Of a stretch of 64,000 bases of DNA, positions 23,588 through 34,018 are shown piece by piece. Positions within the stretch are counted from its first letter, which is position 1; each line of letters opens with the position of its first letter. The translations under genes were made by a program, and so were the position numbers. The notes below the pieces were generated by a model. It saw only the letters and a program-made list of their open reading frames with translations, had not been told where the DNA came from and did not search any database. The stretch is from Erysipelotrichaceae bacterium (lineage in GTDB: Bacteria; Bacillota_I; Bacilli_A; Erysipelotrichales; Erysipelotrichaceae): assembly GCA_017473265.1 (NCBI GenBank), contig JAFULQ010000006.1:62001-126000 (forward strand). The letters run 5' to 3'.

Positions 23588-24592
23588 TTATTTCAACAGC
23601 AACAAAGGATTCAACAACAATTCTTGAATCATATTTTGAAAATTAGAAATATCTTGTACTTTCGCAATAGATGTAATCTTATTTCCAACATCTTTACTAG
23701 AAGCTCCACAATGATAAATCACTTCATCTGTTGTACCATAATCTAAAATAATATATCGGTCATGATACTTATTATTCGTAGTTTGAAAGCCAATATTCAC
23801 ATTAGGATATTGGCTTTTAAAATCATTAAATTCAACCATAGTTAAACCTTTACCTACATTATCAGAAAAAATAATTATCATTATAGAAGACACTATATTC
23901 TTTAAATGCACCAGTGTTCTTACACCAATATAATTATCAATGATATATATAGACTTTTTAGCCAAACCATAGATTTTCTCATATACTAAATCTGCAGAAA
24001 ACCTTTCACCATTAAGCAATAAATATTCATTCGTTTTAGTTGAACTAATAAACTCTTCCATAACTTCATCTAAATAGCTTTTGGTAACCATTTCTTTCTC
24101 ATGTTTTTGAACAACATTAGCAATATCATTCACCTGCATAGACAATCGCAAATAATCTTGATTCGTAATCATATTACGATTTTCAACTAAATAATGACGC
24201 ATCTCTTTAAAAGTTCGAATAATTAAAATGCTTTGTTTAACAGCTATATCACTTTTTAAAACTGTCGCTAGCATATAAACACCTTGTTCCGTAAAGACAT
24301 AAGGCAAGTATCTTCTTCCTCCATCCTGACCGCTAAATAACGAATTATCTTGTGAGGTCACAAATTGTGACCTCACAGTAATAAGTTCCTCCATATTCAA
24401 TTGAAACATAAAATCTTCAGGAAATCTTTCCATATTTCTTTTTACTTGCTGATTAAACTTCTTAGTCTCATAGCCATACAATAGTGCCAAATCACTATCC
24501 AGCATTACTTGAACACCACGAATTGTATAAATCTTTTTCACTATACCTTCCTTATTATTAATAATTTCATCTTTTAAGTCGATGTTTTCCAT
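23588..24592 (-). CDS. ORF6N-domain protein with PLD-like C-terminus
   Basis: The product has 334 residues. Residues about 17-130 form an ORF6N domain (IRGVQVMLDSDLALLYGYET, VKRNMERFPEDFMFQL, YVFTEQGVYML), a DNA-binding domain common in phages and their relatives. The C-terminal third has KYHDRYIILDYG followed by HCGASSKDVG, which resembles half of a phospholipase D-like site (H-x-D/K and GxxS). A long perfect palindrome is embedded in the codons for TVRSQFVTSQ, and a related one lies upstream of the ATG. It overlaps no other gene and is convergent with the small peptide gene. Confidence 0.88.
   Translation of the reverse strand: MENIDLKDEIINNKEGIVKKIYTIRGVQVMLDSDLALLYGYETKKFNQQVKRNMERFPEDFMFQLNMEELITVRSQFVTSQDNSLFSGQDGGRRYLPYVFTEQGVYMLATVLKSDIAVKQSILIIRTFKEMRHYLVENRNMITNQDYLRLSMQVNDIANVVQKHEKEMVTKSYLDEVMEEFISSTKTNEYLLLNGERFSADLVYEKIYGLAKKSIYIIDNYIGVRTLVHLKNIVSSIMIIIFSDNVGKGLTMVEFNDFKSQYPNVNIGFQTTNNKYHDRYIILDYGTTDEVIYHCGASSKDVGNKITSIAKVQDISNFQNMIQELLLNPLLLLK
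24351..24377. promoter_or_regulatory. 27-base perfect palindrome inside the ORF6N gene
   Basis: Arms TGTGAGGTCACAA and TTGTGACCTCACA are exact inverse complements around a single central base. Core GAGGTCA...TGACCTC is shared in part with 24660-24685. Confidence 0.6.
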
Positions 24593-24685: not shown

Positions 24686-24723
24686 TATTTCCTTCTGTAA
24701 TCCTTTAATAAAACACAAAAAAA

Positions 24724-24740
24724 GATCACTACACGTGATC
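24724..24740 (-). terminator. Terminator of the 105-aa membrane protein gene
   Basis: Stem GATCAC / GTGATC with loop TACAC, then a seven-T run on the minus strand; it overlaps the stop region. Confidence 0.85.
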
Positions 24741-25046
24741 CTTATTACTCTTCCTATTTTTAAATGCTCCTACTACCGTTTGACTAATCAAACACAATCC
24801 ATTAATAACAATAGAAGCCATTGTACAACCCCATAACATCTTACTCATAGTAGGCATAACATCTTCTAATGCTCCCCAGTTTTGTTCAACTACCCATTTA
24901 GCTTCAGCACTATAACAAGCACATAGTGTACAACAAGTGAATGCCATACTAATAAATCCTACAATTAGTACTTTCTTACCCTTAAATGTTAATACGACAT
25001 TTAATATTGCAAATAGAATTGCTAATATACCAAAGACAAACCACAT
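24729..25046 (-). CDS. Small membrane protein, 105 aa
   Basis: ATG at 25044-25046 follows ACGGAGGTAGTGTGT; a GTG two codons earlier is possible but badly spaced. Three hydrophobic segments are visible (FGILAILFAILNVVL, VGFISMAFTCCTLCACYS, CTMASIVINGLCLIS), with a polar KNRKSNKDHV tail inside the cell. No family is recognised. It has its own terminator and is separate from the FabG-like gene upstream. Confidence 0.75.
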   Translation of the reverse strand: MWFVFGILAILFAILNVVLTFKGKKVLIVGFISMAFTCCTLCACYSAEAKWVVEQNWGALEDVMPTMSKMLWGCTMASIVINGLCLISQTVVGAFKNRKSNKDHV

Positions 25047-25097
25047 ACACACTACCTCCGTACTATATATGTATTATAACATTTGTTACATAAAAAA

Positions 25098-25117
25098 AGA
25101 GTAACAATTGTTACTCT
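25098..25117 (-). terminator. Terminator of the FabG-like gene
   Basis: AGAGTAACAA / TTGTTACTCT is a perfect 20-base inverted repeat followed by seven T residues on the minus strand; it covers the stop codon. Confidence 0.88.
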
Positions 25118-25862
25118 AGGTTCTAGCCATACCATCTACACTTAAGACAACTCCTGTAATATAACTAGCTTCATCCGAAGCAAGGAAAACAAATGCATTC
25201 GCAATATCTTCTGGTTGACCTAAACGTCTTAATGGAATTGTATTAATAAGTGGTTCAATCACTTCCTTAGGTACTGCTTTCATCATATCTGTTTCCGTAA
25301 TACCAGGAGCCACCGCATTCACACGAATCCCCTTAGGACCAAGTTCTCTAGCCAATGATACTGTTAAACCATTTACCGCAAACTTACTTGCAGGATATGC
25401 AAACCCACTTGGTTGACCAGAAATACTTACCATACTACTAGTAGAAAGAATAACCCCACTACCTTTAGCAACCATACATTCACTAGCTACTCGAGTCGCA
25501 TTAAATACACCCTTCACATTTAAATCCATCACTTTATCATAAGTATCTTCCGTATACTCCATAAACGGTGTTCTTTCCGATACCCCAGCATTATTCACCA
25601 AAATATCAATACAACCAAACTCTTTGATTGCCTTTTTAAACTCTTCACGCACCGAATCTAAACTTGCTAGATTGGGACTAATACCACCCACAATAGCATC
25701 CGGATACTTTTCTTTCAATTGTTTCACCGCTCTATCTGCACTTTCTTGTGTACTAGCTGTAATAATAACACGCGCACCCTCTTCTAAAAATCTATCTGCA
25801 GTGGCATATCCAATACCACGACTTCCACCTGTAATAATTGCCACTTTATTCTTCAATCTCAT
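25116..25862 (-). CDS. FabG-like short-chain dehydrogenase/reductase
   Basis: The product has 248 residues of the classical SDR type: cofactor loop GGSRGIG at 12-18, NNAG at about 87-90, catalytic Ser in STSSMVS, and YPASK at about 155-159. The closing SYITGVVLSVDGMA is the usual SDR end. Such enzymes reduce 3-oxoacyl or other carbonyl substrates with NAD(P)H; the substrate cannot be read from the sequence. Its start is followed upstream by CGACCTCC complement (GGAGGTCG), a strong ribosome site. It is divergent from the nuclease-helicase gene. Confidence 0.92.
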   Translation of the reverse strand: MRLKNKVAIITGGSRGIGYATADRFLEEGARVIITASTQESADRAVKQLKEKYPDAIVGGISPNLASLDSVREEFKKAIKEFGCIDILVNNAGVSERTPFMEYTEDTYDKVMDLNVKGVFNATRVASECMVAKGSGVILSTSSMVSISGQPSGFAYPASKFAVNGLTVSLARELGPKGIRVNAVAPGITETDMMKAVPKEVIEPLINTIPLRRLGQPEDIANAFVFLASDEASYITGVVLSVDGMART

Positions 25863-25989
25863 AACGCGACCTCCTTTATCTGTATCTATAGTATACCTTA
25901 AAACAGTCTCTACACCTATTTATTTGCCCTAATTAATTTTACAAATAAAGAATATATATTAAAATAAAAGTAAACATGGGAGGTACTAT

Positions 25990-27435
25990 ATGAAACCAAT
26001 CAACCTATATACTTATAAATCCACACACAATAGTTTAGATATGCAAACATTTATGAACTATTTACAACATGAATACCAAACCAATCAAAATAAACTAGAA
26101 ATCTTAGATACTATCCAATTTATCAATCAACTAGAAACTACAAACATGAAACTCTTTGATTACTACTATATTGGTTTTACCATCCCACAAATCTCTAAAG
26201 AATTTGACTTATTACGCATTAGTGATGAATACATCGTTAATATTGAATTAAAACACAAATGCACCAAAGCCAAAATCAAAAAACAACTACTACAAAATCG
26301 TTACTATCTAAAAGCTAGTCATAAAGCTTGTTATTGTTATAGTTATATTGCCAATACCAACAAACTATACAAACTTGTCAATAACTCTATCATAGAAACT
26401 AGTTTTTTGGATGTCATTGAAACCCTTCAAAACCAGCAAACATTTCCACCAATCAACCTTAATGCTATGTTTGCACCAATAAAGTATTTAATCTCACCAT
26501 TTAACGAACCACAAAAGTTCTTAAACAACGAATACTTTTTAACCAACCAACAAGCAGATATCAAAAAGAACATTACTAAACAACTACATAAACAAAACTT
26601 TATTGCCATTACTGGAGATGCAGGTACAGGAAAAACCCTATTAACCTATGATTTAGCCAAAGAATACCAAAACAAATATAAAGTAACCATTATTCATTGT
26701 GGTCCACTAAACCAAGGACAACAATACTTAATACAACAAGGATACAATATTGTACCACCAACAACACAAATTCAAGCAGACATCATCATTATTGATGAAG
26801 CACAACGCATGGAACCTGACATTTTACATACCCTTATCCAACAAGTACAACAACAAAATCTTACTTGTATTTTTTCCTATGACCCAAAACAAATATTAAC
26901 CAAACAAGAACAACAATGGAACCATGCCAAAACCATTGAACAACTCTGCACACAAACACACAAACTATCTGGTAATATTCGCACCAACCGTCAAATATTC
27001 GCCTTTATTACCAATGTATTCGATCTAACAAAACGTAATCCAAATTATCAATATGAACAAATATCGCTATCCCACTTTACCAATATTACAGATGCGAAAT
27101 CCTATATTAACTATCAAAAAAACAATCATTATACCTTTATCAATTATACGGGCACTAATTTTAATGACAATCCAGATATCATTGACCAACTACAAACCCT
27201 TCAACTCTATAATACCCATGAAGTCATTGGTCAAGAATTTAATAAAGTGATTATCGCCATTGATAAAACCTTCTATTACAACAAAAACAAATTAGAATCT
27301 AAACAATGGGAAAACATACCCTATGAACCAAGTAAAATGCTCTTTCAATTAATCACACGCGTAAGAGAACAACTATGTATTGTCATTATTGATAATCCAG
27401 AACTATTTACCAAAATCCTAAAAATCAAAGAATAA
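25990..27435 (+). CDS. Nuclease-helicase: PD-(D/E)xK-like N-terminus with SF1/DUF2075-type ATPase
   Basis: The product has 481 residues. Residues 70-90 read KEFDLLRISDEYIVNIELKH, a D73...E86-x-K88 arrangement like NERD and other PD-(D/E)xK nucleases. An SF1-type motor follows: Walker A ITGDAGTGKT (207-216), Walker B IIIIDEAQR (265-273), FSYDPKQIL as motif III, and late motifs HEVIGQEFNKVII and FQLITRVREQL. This resembles DUF2075-type helicase ATPases. ATG at 25990 follows GGGAGGTACTAT. It stands directly before the structured RNA and reverse transcriptase, on the same strand, 220 bases away. Possible partner of that RT; that link is inference. Confidence 0.8.
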   Translation: MKPINLYTYKSTHNSLDMQTFMNYLQHEYQTNQNKLEILDTIQFINQLETTNMKLFDYYYIGFTIPQISKEFDLLRISDEYIVNIELKHKCTKAKIKKQLLQNRYYLKASHKACYCYSYIANTNKLYKLVNNSIIETSFLDVIETLQNQQTFPPINLNAMFAPIKYLISPFNEPQKFLNNEYFLTNQQADIKKNITKQLHKQNFIAITGDAGTGKTLLTYDLAKEYQNKYKVTIIHCGPLNQGQQYLIQQGYNIVPPTTQIQADIIIIDEAQRMEPDILHTLIQQVQQQNLTCIFSYDPKQILTKQEQQWNHAKTIEQLCTQTHKLSGNIRTNRQIFAFITNVFDLTKRNPNYQYEQISLSHFTNITDAKSYINYQKNNHYTFINYTGTNFNDNPDIIDQLQTLQLYNTHEVIGQEFNKVIIAIDKTFYYNKNKLESKQWENIPYEPSKMLFQLITRVREQLCIVIIDNPELFTKILKIKE

Positions 27436-27498
27436 TTACCCAAAAAACTACCCATATGGTTAGTGTAAAAACAAGAAAGGATTTGCTAAACTAAAGAT

Positions 27499-27643
27499 GT
27501 AAAGGAGATATTATGCATTCATAATACTTGTAATGGGAAAAAGTATAGTACTAGATAGAGGGTTGTGCAAGTGGCCGTACTATATATGATCTTGTCGCAT
27601 TCGACTACGTCGATTCTTAATCGATCTCTCCTTTACTTTTTTT
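27499..27643 (+). ncRNA. Structured candidate RNA directly upstream of the reverse transcriptase
   Basis: The element is closed by a perfect long-range stem GTAAAGGAGA (27499-27508) / TCTCCTTTAC (27627-27636) followed by TTTTTTT. Inside are three further perfect hairpins: TATTATG-CATT-CATAATA (27509-27526), TATAGTAC / GTACTATA (27544-27551 with 27577-27584), and TCGAC-TAC-GTCGA (27601-27613). It ends 12 bases before the RT start codon. Retrons and several defence-associated RTs carry a structured template RNA at exactly this place. It also contains an SD-ATG mini frame (27513-27524). Alternative: a leader attenuator controlling the RT gene. Confidence 0.6.
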
Positions 27644-27655
27644 GTAGGTGATAAT

Positions 27656-28852
27656 ATGAGCATATTACAACAATTAAAAGACGACACAAAATGGCAAGCA
27701 TTTCTAAACAAAAAACTAGAAAGCCATTTACCAAACACCATTTTAGAACAATACAAAACCTTCATAAACAACAAACAATACCAACCACTCGTAGACAAAA
27801 TCATCAATGGTTCCTATACCTTTTCTACGCCAAGAAAAATCCTAATTGGCAAAATGGGAAAAACCAAAAAACGCACCGTCTACCTTTTTCAACATGATGA
27901 AAACTACATCTTAAAAATGCTAACGTATTTATTATATGAATACGATCATTTATTTAGTCCCAATCTATTCTCATTTAGACAAAACAGTGGTGTAAAAAAT
28001 GCCATTCACTATATTACACATCATAAAATAGATACTATGTATGGCTATAAAGTAGATATTCAAAACTATTTCAATAGCATCGATATCCAACTTTTATTAC
28101 CACAACTACAAAAAGACTTACAAGATGAACCACTCTACCAATTATTTCATCAAATACTAACCAAACAACAAACACTATATCATGATGAAATCATCAAAGA
28201 ACAAACAGGTGCTATGGCAGGCGTTCCTTTATCCACCTTTCTAGCCAATTACTATTTAAAAGATTTAGACGCATACTTTCATCAACAAGGTATTATTTAT
28301 GCTCGTTATGCTGATGATATCCTATTCTTTGCCAATACCTTAGAACAGTTATTGGAATATAAACAATATCTTATACAATATTTAAAAAACAAACACTTAA
28401 CTATTAATACTGAAAAAGAATATATCTATCAACCAAAAGAAAAGATTGAATTTCTCGGTTTTAGCTATGAAAATGGAACCATCGATTTAAGCGATAATAC
28501 CATCAAAAAAATGAAAGGCAAAATACGTAGAACCGCTAGAGGACTACGTAGATGGAAACTAAAAAAACAAGCAAGCAATGAAATTACACTTAAAGCCATG
28601 AACCGCAAATTTAACAAAAAATTCTATGGTAAAGAAACCACCGATTTAAGTTGGCAATATTGGTTCTTCCCAACAATTACCACTTCCAAAAGTCTAAAAA
28701 TCATTGATACCTATATGCAACAATGGCAAAGATACATCATTACAGGAAAACACAACAAAACCAATTACAAAAAAGTTCCCTATAGTTTCTTAAAGAAATG
28801 TAACTATATACCACTTGTTCATGCCTATTATACATACAAAGAGGAGAAATAA
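27656..28852 (+). CDS. Reverse transcriptase of uncertain lineage (not a group II intron protein)
   Basis: The product has 398 residues with all RT palm motifs: FSFRQNSGVKNAI (RT2), YKVDIQNYFNSID with D134 (RT3), GAMAGVPLSTFLANYYLKDL (RT4), RYADDILFF with YADD 218-221 (RT5) and KIEFLGFSY (RT6-7). It has no maturase or HNH part and no clear retron VTG motif. The C-terminal 130 residues are basic (KIRRTARGLRRWKLKKQ) and probably bind RNA. The length fits stand-alone defence RTs (DRT/unknown-group). ATG at 27656 has a modest AGGTG site. A structured RNA precedes it and a nuclease-helicase lies upstream. Confidence 0.93.
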   Translation: MSILQQLKDDTKWQAFLNKKLESHLPNTILEQYKTFINNKQYQPLVDKIINGSYTFSTPRKILIGKMGKTKKRTVYLFQHDENYILKMLTYLLYEYDHLFSPNLFSFRQNSGVKNAIHYITHHKIDTMYGYKVDIQNYFNSIDIQLLLPQLQKDLQDEPLYQLFHQILTKQQTLYHDEIIKEQTGAMAGVPLSTFLANYYLKDLDAYFHQQGIIYARYADDILFFANTLEQLLEYKQYLIQYLKNKHLTINTEKEYIYQPKEKIEFLGFSYENGTIDLSDNTIKKMKGKIRRTARGLRRWKLKKQASNEITLKAMNRKFNKKFYGKETTDLSWQYWFFPTITTSKSLKIIDTYMQQWQRYIITGKHNKTNYKKVPYSFLKKCNYIPLVHAYYTYKEEK

Positions 28853-28862
28853 TCTCCTCTTT
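28838..28862. terminator. Hairpin between the convergent RT and 86-aa genes
   Basis: Perfect 10-base stem AAAGAGGAGA / TCTCCTCTTT with loop AATAA, covering both stop codons. T runs are short, so it may be a weak two-way terminator. Confidence 0.6.
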
Positions 28863-29122
28863 CATTTAACAATAATTTCTTCCTTCATAGAGTTTACTAC
28901 ATCCAAAAATGCTTGTTCAATATCCCTATAATCATATGTATTCAACAACACCCGCATTTGCCTAGCAATCGACAACACCAAATGCAACTCATCAAACTTC
29001 ACCCGACTCATCACATACTGCACATCCAACAAATACTGCTGATACTGATAGGCACTATAGATTTCATCCTCCGTTAATTCAATTGTGACTTCTTTGTTAT
29101 CAATCATTCTAGAAATATACAT
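28862..29122 (-). CDS. Hypothetical protein, 86 aa
   Basis: The product is a soluble, acidic helical protein with EVTIELTEDEIYSAYQYQQY near the start and no recognised domain. ATG at 29120-29122 follows AGAGGTGGTTGT, a good site. It is convergent with the RT and lies 40 bases from the broken DUF3307 gene. The ELTEDEI-type start is common in small Firmicutes accessory proteins but names no function. Confidence 0.7.
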   Translation of the reverse strand: MYISRMIDNKEVTIELTEDEIYSAYQYQQYLLDVQYVMSRVKFDELHLVLSIARQMRVLLNTYDYRDIEQAFLDVVNSMKEEIIVK

Positions 29123-30117: not shown

Positions 30118-31449
30118 CTATTTTTTATACGTTATTATTTTCTTTAAAATCTGTTCTTTCGACAATCCACCATATTTTCTTGCGAAATCATCAAAACTAG
30201 CATTTTTATCAAGTCCTAAACATACAAATAATTCTTCTTTAATATGTTTATTATACTCTTCAAGCAAATTGTTTTTCCAATAATATTTTGTCTTTCTTTC
30301 TTCTTTAGAAAGTAACCAATTATCTGCACGAATACTTATACTTACACCTGCATGAGGAGAAGTATAATTTGATAACAACTGTATCAAATTAGGGCTCAAA
30401 CTTGAATATGGAAGTTCTACAGATGCAGTCCCCCACTCTACATAAAGTGTATATTCCTCAAACTTTGGAAATAAGCCATCATTCCTAAAAGACTCCTCTG
30501 TAAACAAGGTAAAATGATCATTTGTAATAGTATGTTTGGTACACACTATATTAAATTCTAAATCTTCCTCATCTAATTCTTTATGTCCAATAATAGGATG
30601 CGTTCCCCAAATAATATCACAATCACTACAAATACTTAATCTATCCAATGGTACATTTAACAAATCTTCCACTGACAAATTACCATTTGTTGTCACTAAG
30701 TCATAATTTCGAACCATAATTGGAACTGTCATTAATGAGCGCAAACTATGCCGCTTTGGTAGTTCCTCCCATTTTCGAATCTTCGATATCTCACCAGTAA
30801 TAATTCCATATCCATAACGAAAACGATCTAATTCAATTCTAAAAATATCGCCTGGTTTATATTTCACAGTCACATGCTTTGAATTACGCATACGTTCAAT
30901 TCTTTCAAAATAATTTTCAGGACAAGTTTTTATATAATACTCCATAAAACTCTGAAATTCATCATTAGAGGTTATTTTATGAATTCTATCTTCTTCACCA
31001 ATAGCTAATTCCTGATTACTCCTAATATTTCTAACAAAAATATAAGCTTGTGGTCCTTCTTCATAATACCTTAATGTGTATTGAAACTCACAACCCATTG
31101 GATAAACGGCTAATACATTAGTTGCATTGACCTTTTTCTTTTTTCCACGAGAAGTTAGTGGTAATAAATACTCTCTATTTTCTGTCACCAATTGCGTATC
31201 ATGCTCCGTTAAAAATACAGATACTATACGACCATCATTTAACATTTTATACTCATCAACAACAACTTTTTTGATGATATTTTCACTCCAATACAATGTA
31301 ACACGTTTATAATTATAATTCGTTTTACTCAAAAAATGAGTAGTATCCCAAGTAGTATCCATTGCATTTATACCAAAATATTTTCTATGCAAATCATTAA
31401 TATTTAAAAAATGATTTTCACCAAATAGTTCATTCCAAGACCAAGCCAT
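30118..31449 (-). CDS. Imm26-like domain protein, 443 aa
   Basis: The product is soluble with no signal peptide. Residues about 198-310 read KYKPGDIFRIELDRFRYGYG followed by VPIMVRNYDL and a DIIWGTHPIIG segment, the pattern I associate with the Imm26 immunity-protein family. The first 190 and last 130 residues are not recognised. It has its own promoter region, a good GAGGTGATCATAT ribosome site and its own terminator. No toxin partner is adjacent. It may be an orphan immunity or phage-sensing protein; the family call is moderate. Confidence 0.5.
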   Translation of the reverse strand: MAWSWNELFGENHFLNINDLHRKYFGINAMDTTWDTTHFLSKTNYNYKRVTLYWSENIIKKVVVDEYKMLNDGRIVSVFLTEHDTQLVTENREYLLPLTSRGKKKKVNATNVLAVYPMGCEFQYTLRYYEEGPQAYIFVRNIRSNQELAIGEEDRIHKITSNDEFQSFMEYYIKTCPENYFERIERMRNSKHVTVKYKPGDIFRIELDRFRYGYGIITGEISKIRKWEELPKRHSLRSLMTVPIMVRNYDLVTTNGNLSVEDLLNVPLDRLSICSDCDIIWGTHPIIGHKELDEEDLEFNIVCTKHTITNDHFTLFTEESFRNDGLFPKFEEYTLYVEWGTASVELPYSSLSPNLIQLLSNYTSPHAGVSISIRADNWLLSKEERKTKYYWKNNLLEEYNKHIKEELFVCLGLDKNASFDDFARKYGGLSKEQILKKIITYKK

Positions 31450-32965: not shown

Positions 32966-34018
32966 ATGCTTGAAAGTAGTCGTAATTATGTCGCAATACC
33001 TCCTGGTATGACAATAAAAGAATTATTACAAGATAGAGGAATCTCACAAAAAGAATTTGCTGTTCGTATTGGTGCTAGTGAAAAACATGTTAGTAAATTA
33101 ATTAATGGGGAAGTTCATCTTACAATGGATATGGCTAGGAAGTTAGAAACCGTATTGGGACCATCTACACAGTTTTGGTGCAATTTAGAATCTTTGTATC
33201 GGGAGAACCTCGCTTTAGCAAGCGAGGAAAATGCACTAGATGCTGATAAGAATATATTAAATATGTTTTCATATAATGAAATAGCAAATTTAGGTTGGGT
33301 AGAGAAAACAAATAATAAAACACAAAGAATCTATAATTTAAGAAAATTCTTTGAAGTAGCTCAATTATCATTTTTAAATGAGCAATTAATTCCTAATGTA
33401 ATTTATAGAAAACTATCATTAACAAATTCATCTGATTATAAGTTACTTGCATGGTGTCAAAAAGCCAAACTAGACGCAAGAAATATTTATACAAATAAAA
33501 TTAATATATCTCTATTAAAGAGAAAACTACCAGACATTCGTTATTTATGTAATCTAACTCCTAGTGAATTTTGTGATACTTTGGTATCAATACTAGCAGA
33601 ATGTGGTATTGCATTAGTGTTTTTACCACACTTAAAAGGTAGTTTTCTTCATGGTGCTACATTTTATGACAATCACAAAATTGTTGTTGGTTTAACTGTT
33701 AGAGGAAAAGATGCTGATCGTTTTTGGTTTAGTCTTTTTCATGAGCTAGGACATATTATTAATGAAGATTATTTACATGATGAATATTATGAAGATATCG
33801 AAAGAAATGCAGATACATTTGCACGCAATCTACTAATTAACGAAACTGATTATCAAAATTTTATCCTAAAAAATGCGATTACAGAAAAATCTATAATAGA
33901 TTTCGCAAATTCACAATCTATTGATCAAGGAATTGTTGTCGGTAGATTACAAGCAGATGAAATCATTCCATACTCATCTTATAATTATTTAAAGACAAAA
34001 TATGAAATTAATGAATGA
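32966..34018 (+). CDS. higA: HigA-type antitoxin fused to ImmA/IrrE-like metallopeptidase domain
   Basis: The product has 350 residues. Residues about 10-75 are a HigA-type helix-turn-helix (IPPGMTIKELLQDRGISQKE, EKHVSKLINGEVHLT). The C-terminal half has WFSLFHELGHIIN, a zinc HExxH site, followed by the third ligand region ERNADTFARNLL, as in ImmA/IrrE proteins. ImmA-type peptidases cleave repressors on stress. It follows the broken higB by 18 bases with a GAAAGAAGGAAATAAG ribosome site. It should still repress its promoter through the two TTTACCT operators. No disruption is visible. Confidence 0.9.
   Translation: MLESSRNYVAIPPGMTIKELLQDRGISQKEFAVRIGASEKHVSKLINGEVHLTMDMARKLETVLGPSTQFWCNLESLYRENLALASEENALDADKNILNMFSYNEIANLGWVEKTNNKTQRIYNLRKFFEVAQLSFLNEQLIPNVIYRKLSLTNSSDYKLLAWCQKAKLDARNIYTNKINISLLKRKLPDIRYLCNLTPSEFCDTLVSILAECGIALVFLPHLKGSFLHGATFYDNHKIVVGLTVRGKDADRFWFSLFHELGHIINEDYLHDEYYEDIERNADTFARNLLINETDYQNFILKNAITEKSIIDFANSQSIDQGIVVGRLQADEIIPYSSYNYLKTKYEINE

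Follow-up and report, generated by a model that had tools for sequence, protein, structure and literature searches.

We found that the window (the 64,000-nucleotide stretch of DNA that was analysed), which comes from a gut bacterium, contains a reverse transcriptase (RT) of class UG26 immediately preceded by a structured noncoding RNA (ncRNA) related to the Rfam family RF03026, 'RT-5 RNA', and that these two form a genuine unit that is conserved. We consider it likely that the unit is a UG26 DRT in which the cognate, cis-encoded RT-5-like RNA serves as scaffold and template, with DNA synthesis probably primed on tyrosine and with a role in defence. The first-pass annotation had suggested an undescribed system. 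The conservation of the RT-RNA unit agrees with this in part, but UG26 is already a catalogued RT class, and RT-5, of which the RNA is a divergent homologue, a catalogued family; it is the pairing of UG26 with RT-5, and the function of this pairing, that is undescribed as far as the literature searched shows. In that literature no experimental work on any UG26 was found, UG26 being named in passing only, and there was no mention of 'RT-5 RNA' or RF03026. The features of the locus are as follows:

25990 to 27435, + strand: AbiO/Nhi-family nuclease-helicase, a neighbour (PADLOC AbiO, E 2e-151; Nhi, E 4.5e-148)
27499 to 27643, + strand: RT-5-like structured ncRNA, 145 nt (RF03026 match, model R1, fold)
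27509 to 27526, + strand: stem-loop 1, TATTATG-CATT-CATAATA, equal to SL1 (helix 2) of the family (fold)
27527 to 27571, + strand: pseudoknot P3, CTTGTA at 27527-27532 with TGCAAG at 27566-27571 (6 of 6 pairs)
27535 to 27593, + strand: hairpin composed of a/a' (27535-27538/27590-27593), b/b' (27543-27551/27577-27585) and c/c' (27561-27564/27573-27576) (fold, covariation)
27552 to 27560, + strand: variable, unpaired joint within the pseudoknot, second-choice candidate for the template (its place is homologous to that of the variable loop in alignment A1)
27601 to 27613, + strand: last stem-loop, TCGAC-TAC-GTCGA (RF03026 alignment, pairing)
27614 to 27626, + strand: single-stranded joint after the last stem-loop, preferred template candidate (position only)
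27656 to 28852, + strand: UG26 reverse transcriptase, 398 aa, YADD (PADLOC RT_UG26, Pfam RVT_1, alignment)

The reverse transcriptase is a member of class UG26

The ORF list and the alignment bear out the earlier reading of a stand-alone RT with YADD at residues 218-221, and both this catalytic motif and the RVT_1 domain are intact (Pfam, alignment). The PADLOC model RT_UG26 covers residues 1-396 with a score of 498.7 bits (E 2.4e-150); the runner-up PADLOC models were the general RT (127.6 bits), UG4 (119), UG17/DRT10 (116) and UG27 (112), with lower scores for UG28/DRT9 (84) and DRT3a (79.5). The window RT is an ordinary full-length UG26 member. Its RT4 motif, GVPLSTFLANYYL, which had been singled out as unusual, is ordinary among UG26 homologues (consensus GAMAGVPLASFFANxYL). 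A group II intron RT was rejected, the TIGR04416 score being 118.5 bits against a cut-off of 300 and the window having no gathering-level Rfam match. On the question of class 2, the best-scoring models with studied members were UG17, UG28, UG3 and UG2 (PADLOC profile scores); DRT10/UG17, DRT9/UG28, DRT3a and DRT2 are class 2 systems with template RNAs (PMC12632851, PMC13174585).

Near the C terminus of the RT, Tyr376 and Tyr384 are invariant in 40 sequences, and Tyr391 is present in 36 of the 40. An AlphaFold2 structure predicted from the single sequence had a pLDDT of 35 and was not used.

UG26 homologues at E below 1e-40 were found in 40 of 273 genomes of the family Erysipelotrichaceae. The window RT is 39-46% identical to most of these and 98% identical to a homologue in the same genus (locus L002). 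The UG26 class looks narrow, because wider sampling of the class and phylum added a single UG26 (genome G764, from another family of the same class). No close UG26 or partner protein (see below) was found in phage collections, plasmid collections or viral contigs. More distant UG26-like RTs, about 27-31% identical to the window RT, were present at four loci (L069, L070, L096 and L097) without an RT-5 match; at L070, the RT begins just where the gene before it stops, and therefore any RNA must be elsewhere.

A divergent RT-5 RNA precedes the RT gene

The first-pass annotation had also drawn attention to a folded element upstream of the RT, and its description proved accurate. The element is 145 nt long and ends exactly 12 nt (27644-27655) before the RT ATG; it is closed by a perfect 10-bp stem, GTAAAGGAGA (27499-27508) with TCTCCTTTAC (27627-27636), followed by seven T residues at 27637-27643, and it contains the inner hairpins TATTATG/CATAATA (27509-27526), a 9-bp stem (27543-27551/27577-27585) and TCGAC-TAC-GTCGA (27601-27613). 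The minimum free energy of the 146-nt stretch was -35.9 kcal/mol, with a z score of -2.41 relative to dinucleotide shuffles. The folding energy alone is thus only moderately unusual, and the decisive support for the element is its conservation.

RF03026 matched positions 27522-27628 with 37.5 bits (E 8.6e-6 genome-wide), which is below the gathering cut-off of 45.7 bits, and no Rfam family reached gathering level in the window; therefore, the window RNA is a divergent RT-5 homologue and not a curated member. It shares with RF03026 the place directly 5' of a UG26 RT, the order of the helices and a full-length model match, and differs in its sub-gathering score and in having other sequence in every stem. 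The RF03026 structure line printed by cmscan is without P3; cmscan may omit pseudoknots, and the Rfam seed was unseen. A covariance model (R1) was built from 29 RNAs, excluding those of the window and L002. Searched without filters against 3 kb, R1 found positions 27498-27643 of the window with 34.9 bits (E 8.7e-7), in agreement with the ends given above; with default filters on a larger set, the L002 RNA was reported at 36.4 bits and the window RNA was missed.

The stems found upstream of homologous RTs covary, which is the check that the first-pass annotation had itself set. Over the 29 RNAs, the seven helices (44 pairs) were paired in 94.3% of cells, compared to 39-46% when the helices were slid, and 30 of the 44 pairs had changed on both sides, compared to 15 expected from shuffles. 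P3 (helix 3) crosses the a/b hairpin and so is a pseudoknot; 98.8% of its cells were paired, and four of its six pairs had changed on both sides. In the window taken alone, a helix of this length has a chance of about 0.1. The 5' strand of P3 is CTTGCA in L002, with pairing preserved. The joint past the last stem-loop is near-invariant as TTCAAAG in relatives (columns 119-125 of alignment A1) and is TTCTTAATCGATC in the window. A loop with the sequence CTTTG (columns 66-70 of A1) is complementary to CAAAG of this joint (columns 121-125) in 93% of cells, and so may form a further tertiary contact; the pair hardly varies, and no covariation was seen.

These features bear on two other readings of the RNA. 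It could act in cis as a regulatory leader (attenuator) for the RT, in which the closing stem and T-run terminate transcription 12 nt before the ATG, refolding controls RT expression, and the RT makes DNA untemplated. The T-run behind the closing stem, right before the ATG, is what such a leader would have, but a conserved pseudoknot, seven covarying helices and a near-invariant unpaired TTCAAAG are superfluous for a simple attenuator, and in the class 2 relatives that have been studied, RNAs of this sort act as templates (PMC13174585); we regard this reading as unlikely. The complementary terminal arms and the stem-loops beside an RT would also suit a retron, with the closing stem as a1/a2 and the RNA as msr-msd. 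However, the St85 model scored 62.8 bits relative to a cut-off of 235, the PADLOC retron models gave at most 70.7 bits, the conserved helices all lie within 145 nt of compact RNA in which a long msd hairpin is missing, and the RT has no VTG, as had been pointed out earlier. A retron is therefore very improbable, and retron identity was rejected on the low profile scores and the absent VTG.

The RNA is paired with UG26 RTs across genomes

RT-5 was found in 39 of the 273 family genomes, in 36 of them above the cut-off, and there were 37 matches above gathering in related genomes. Of the 40 RT-5 matches in the 273 genomes, all except one precede a UG26 RT encoded on the same strand by 15-53 nt, and, conversely, 39 of 43 UG26 RT loci have an adjacent RT-5. 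Therefore, RT-5 RNA and UG26 RT are paired near one-to-one. The four RT loci that have no adjacent RT-5 consist of a fragment on a split contig, two members of a distant sister group, and genome G039. The pairing also extends to a UG26 locus outside the family (L095), where RT-5 scored 66.9 bits.

In G039, an RT-5-like RNA (L101; G039:C12:16334-16434, - strand; 42.1 bits) is present 12 kb upstream of the UG26 RT. A pairing resembling P3 is present in it, its closing stem is quite different, and transposon-like ORFs follow; an insertion may have separated this RNA from its RT.

The upstream AbiO/Nhi gene is separate from the RT-RNA unit

The genes flanking the window locus encode an SDR, AbiO and a small ORF. 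The ORF at 25990-27435 had been taken for a nuclease-helicase; an SLFN-g3/SF1 helicase domain is indeed present, but no nuclease matched in Pfam, and the PD-(D/E)xK part (FDLLRISDEYIVNIELK) was read from the sequence only. The AbiO/Nhi match is full-length (protein residues 1-479 against model positions 1-466/468; PADLOC). Members of the AbiO/Nhi family are catalogued as defence genes in their own right.

It had been proposed that this gene, the RNA and the RT together form a three-part system, which would fit with AbiO and the RT being on the same strand and 220 nt apart in the window. However, the upstream protein is a full-length member of a stand-alone defence family, and a tblastn search of the flanking sequence retrieved for 39 other loci, of which 37 are UG26 and two are distantly related, found no AbiO match. 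In the comparison with L002, positions 24714-25949 of the window align at 89% and positions 27419-28867 at 96%, and what L002 lacks between the aligned blocks is the AbiO gene alone. Because the L002 flanks match without AbiO, the gene came or went independently. A three-part system as a conserved unit is refuted by the 39 AbiO-less loci, L002 included, and the chance that the three parts nevertheless work as one system is very small; AbiO is separate from the RT-RNA unit and was inserted there by chance.

AbiO is one of three defence-type genes near the window RT. The second, at 23588-24592 (- strand), is a full-length match to the PADLOC candidate PDC-S05 (E 8e-110), and most of this gene is also present in L002; the third, at 32966-34018 (+ strand), encodes an HTH and metalloprotease-like protein matching PD-Lambda-2_B (E 5e-39). 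In addition, an Imm26 domain (Pfam E 1.5e-17) is present in the 443-aa protein encoded at positions 30118-31449 (- strand).

Most UG26 loci encode a COG2852-type protein

In 35 of the 40 UG26 carrier genomes, a COG2852-like gene is situated directly upstream of the RNA. Its product has 129-231 residues, and its 3' end lies right before the RNA, at a distance of 144-188 nt from the RT ATG. The PADLOC model RTasCOG2852 matched 10 of 13 partner proteins (best E 4e-9), and at E 1e-6 the 273 genomes contained no copy of the C-terminal domain outside these genes. Searches of the partner protein against PDB and Pfam gave chance-level matches only. The N-terminal part is amphipathic and repetitive (MGLFDKLLKEG...SEENKEKA; for example, L046:4175-4828), and the C-terminal domain may be, judging by sequence, a degenerate PD-(D/E)xK fold. 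The COG2852-type protein is probably a third component of most UG26 systems.

No such partner is present beside the RT in the window or in L002, and a genome-wide search of G000 for a COG2852-like protein found none, a search in which the positive control was also silent. L095 has no partner, and at L100 the partner is broken. The window locus might thus be degenerate, because it is missing a partner kept by most relatives: the window copy would be a remnant in decay, its COG2852 partner lost, and would be retained by recent ancestry alone. The prevalence of the partner (35 of 40 carriers) and its absence from the window and L002 are in keeping with this, as is the broken partner at L100, another partnerless locus. 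However, the ORF and active site of the window RT and the pairings of its RNA are intact, the change in P3 between the window and L002 preserves pairing, and another family also has a UG26 locus that is without the partner and has a good RT-5 (L095). Decay is accordingly an improbable explanation of the window locus.

Proposed mechanism

We propose the following model for the likely reading given at the outset, in which the RT-5-like RNA is the scaffold and template of a UG26 DRT. The RNA would be transcribed from upstream and would fold into a closed, multi-helix, pseudoknotted scaffold, to which the RT would bind in order to copy a short single-stranded stretch repeatedly. The resulting cDNA, presumably repetitive and with a C-terminal tyrosine as its probable primer, would contribute to anti-phage defence. 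In most relatives, the COG2852-type protein would take part as a third component, and the window lineage would function without it beside the RT.

This model is guided by what is known of related systems. The studied class 2 UG RTs turn cis-encoded RNAs into repetitive cDNA (PMC13174585), and a conserved cis-encoded ncRNA, a trait of class 2 DRTs, is present for UG26. DRT10 has a 137-nt RNA with the template after a stem-loop (PMC12632851), DRT9 primes with C-terminal tyrosines (PMC12483538), and the DRT2 RNA is pseudoknotted (PMC12039810). The preferred template would be the joint at 27614-27626, analogous in position to the templates of DRT9 and DRT10 (PMC12632851, PMC12483538), and the alternative would be the joint at 27552-27560 inside the pseudoknot; on positional grounds, the former of the two is the likeliest template.

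A telomerase- or DRT10-like A-B-A' repeat past the last stem-loop was not above shuffles (p 0.24-0.91 per sequence), and in the variable joint, the mean A-B-A' was 1.69 observed compared to 1.91 shuffled (p 0.89). Because the A-B-A' repeat is not above chance, a DRT10-like product is not claimed.

A broader reading, which we put forward tentatively and with less confidence than the model itself, is that UG26 with RT-5 constitutes an uncharacterised type of templated DRT, in which the RNA is scaffold and template, the COG2852-type protein is an effector or regulator in most relatives, and the window lineage works with RT and RNA alone. If this is true, bacteria would have, in a pseudoknot enclosing the copied loop, a counterpart to the template/pseudoknot domain found in telomerase RNA.

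Comparison with known systems

RNA-templated repetitive synthesis by DRT2, DRT9, DRT3a and DRT10 is actively studied for its link to telomerase, and the present results, by profile scores, would set an unstudied DRT class beside these systems. For the RT-5 RNA family, they supply a protein counterpart, UG26, in a one-to-one relation, together with a candidate role as scaffold and template that can be tested. With RT-5, UG26 and the COG2852 partner brought together, the class becomes directly testable; its smallest version, consisting of RT and RNA alone, is that of the window and would be the easiest to rebuild.

The window RT shares with the catalogued UG26 RTs a full-length match and the catalytic motif, and the window differs in the missing adjacent COG2852 partner and in the AbiO gene inserted upstream. 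This upstream gene is itself a full-length member of the known AbiO/Nhi family, apart from the RT-RNA unit.

DRT2 likewise combines a class 2 RT with a pseudoknotted ncRNA (PMC12039810), but the DRT2 ncRNA is 280 nt long with a 120-nt template, and because the window RNA of 145 nt is too small, the DRT2 mechanism does not fit it. DRT9 (UG28) has a structured ncRNA template, and its C-terminal priming tyrosines resemble the invariant ones of UG26 (PMC12483538), whereas the candidate joint in the window is without a poly-U template tract, and the DRT9 model scored just 84 bits.

DRT10 (UG17 with SLATT and an ncRNA) is similar in having a cis ncRNA of about 140 nt with a short unpaired stretch past the last stem-loop, and in most UG26 relatives there is likewise an extra protein. 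DRT10 identity was rejected: the RT scored 116 bits with UG17 and 499 with UG26, no SLATT is present among the locus genes, and A-B-A' is not above chance. The partner in the UG26 relatives is COG2852-like rather than SLATT, and the UG26 RNA, in contrast to that of DRT10, lies directly before the RT.
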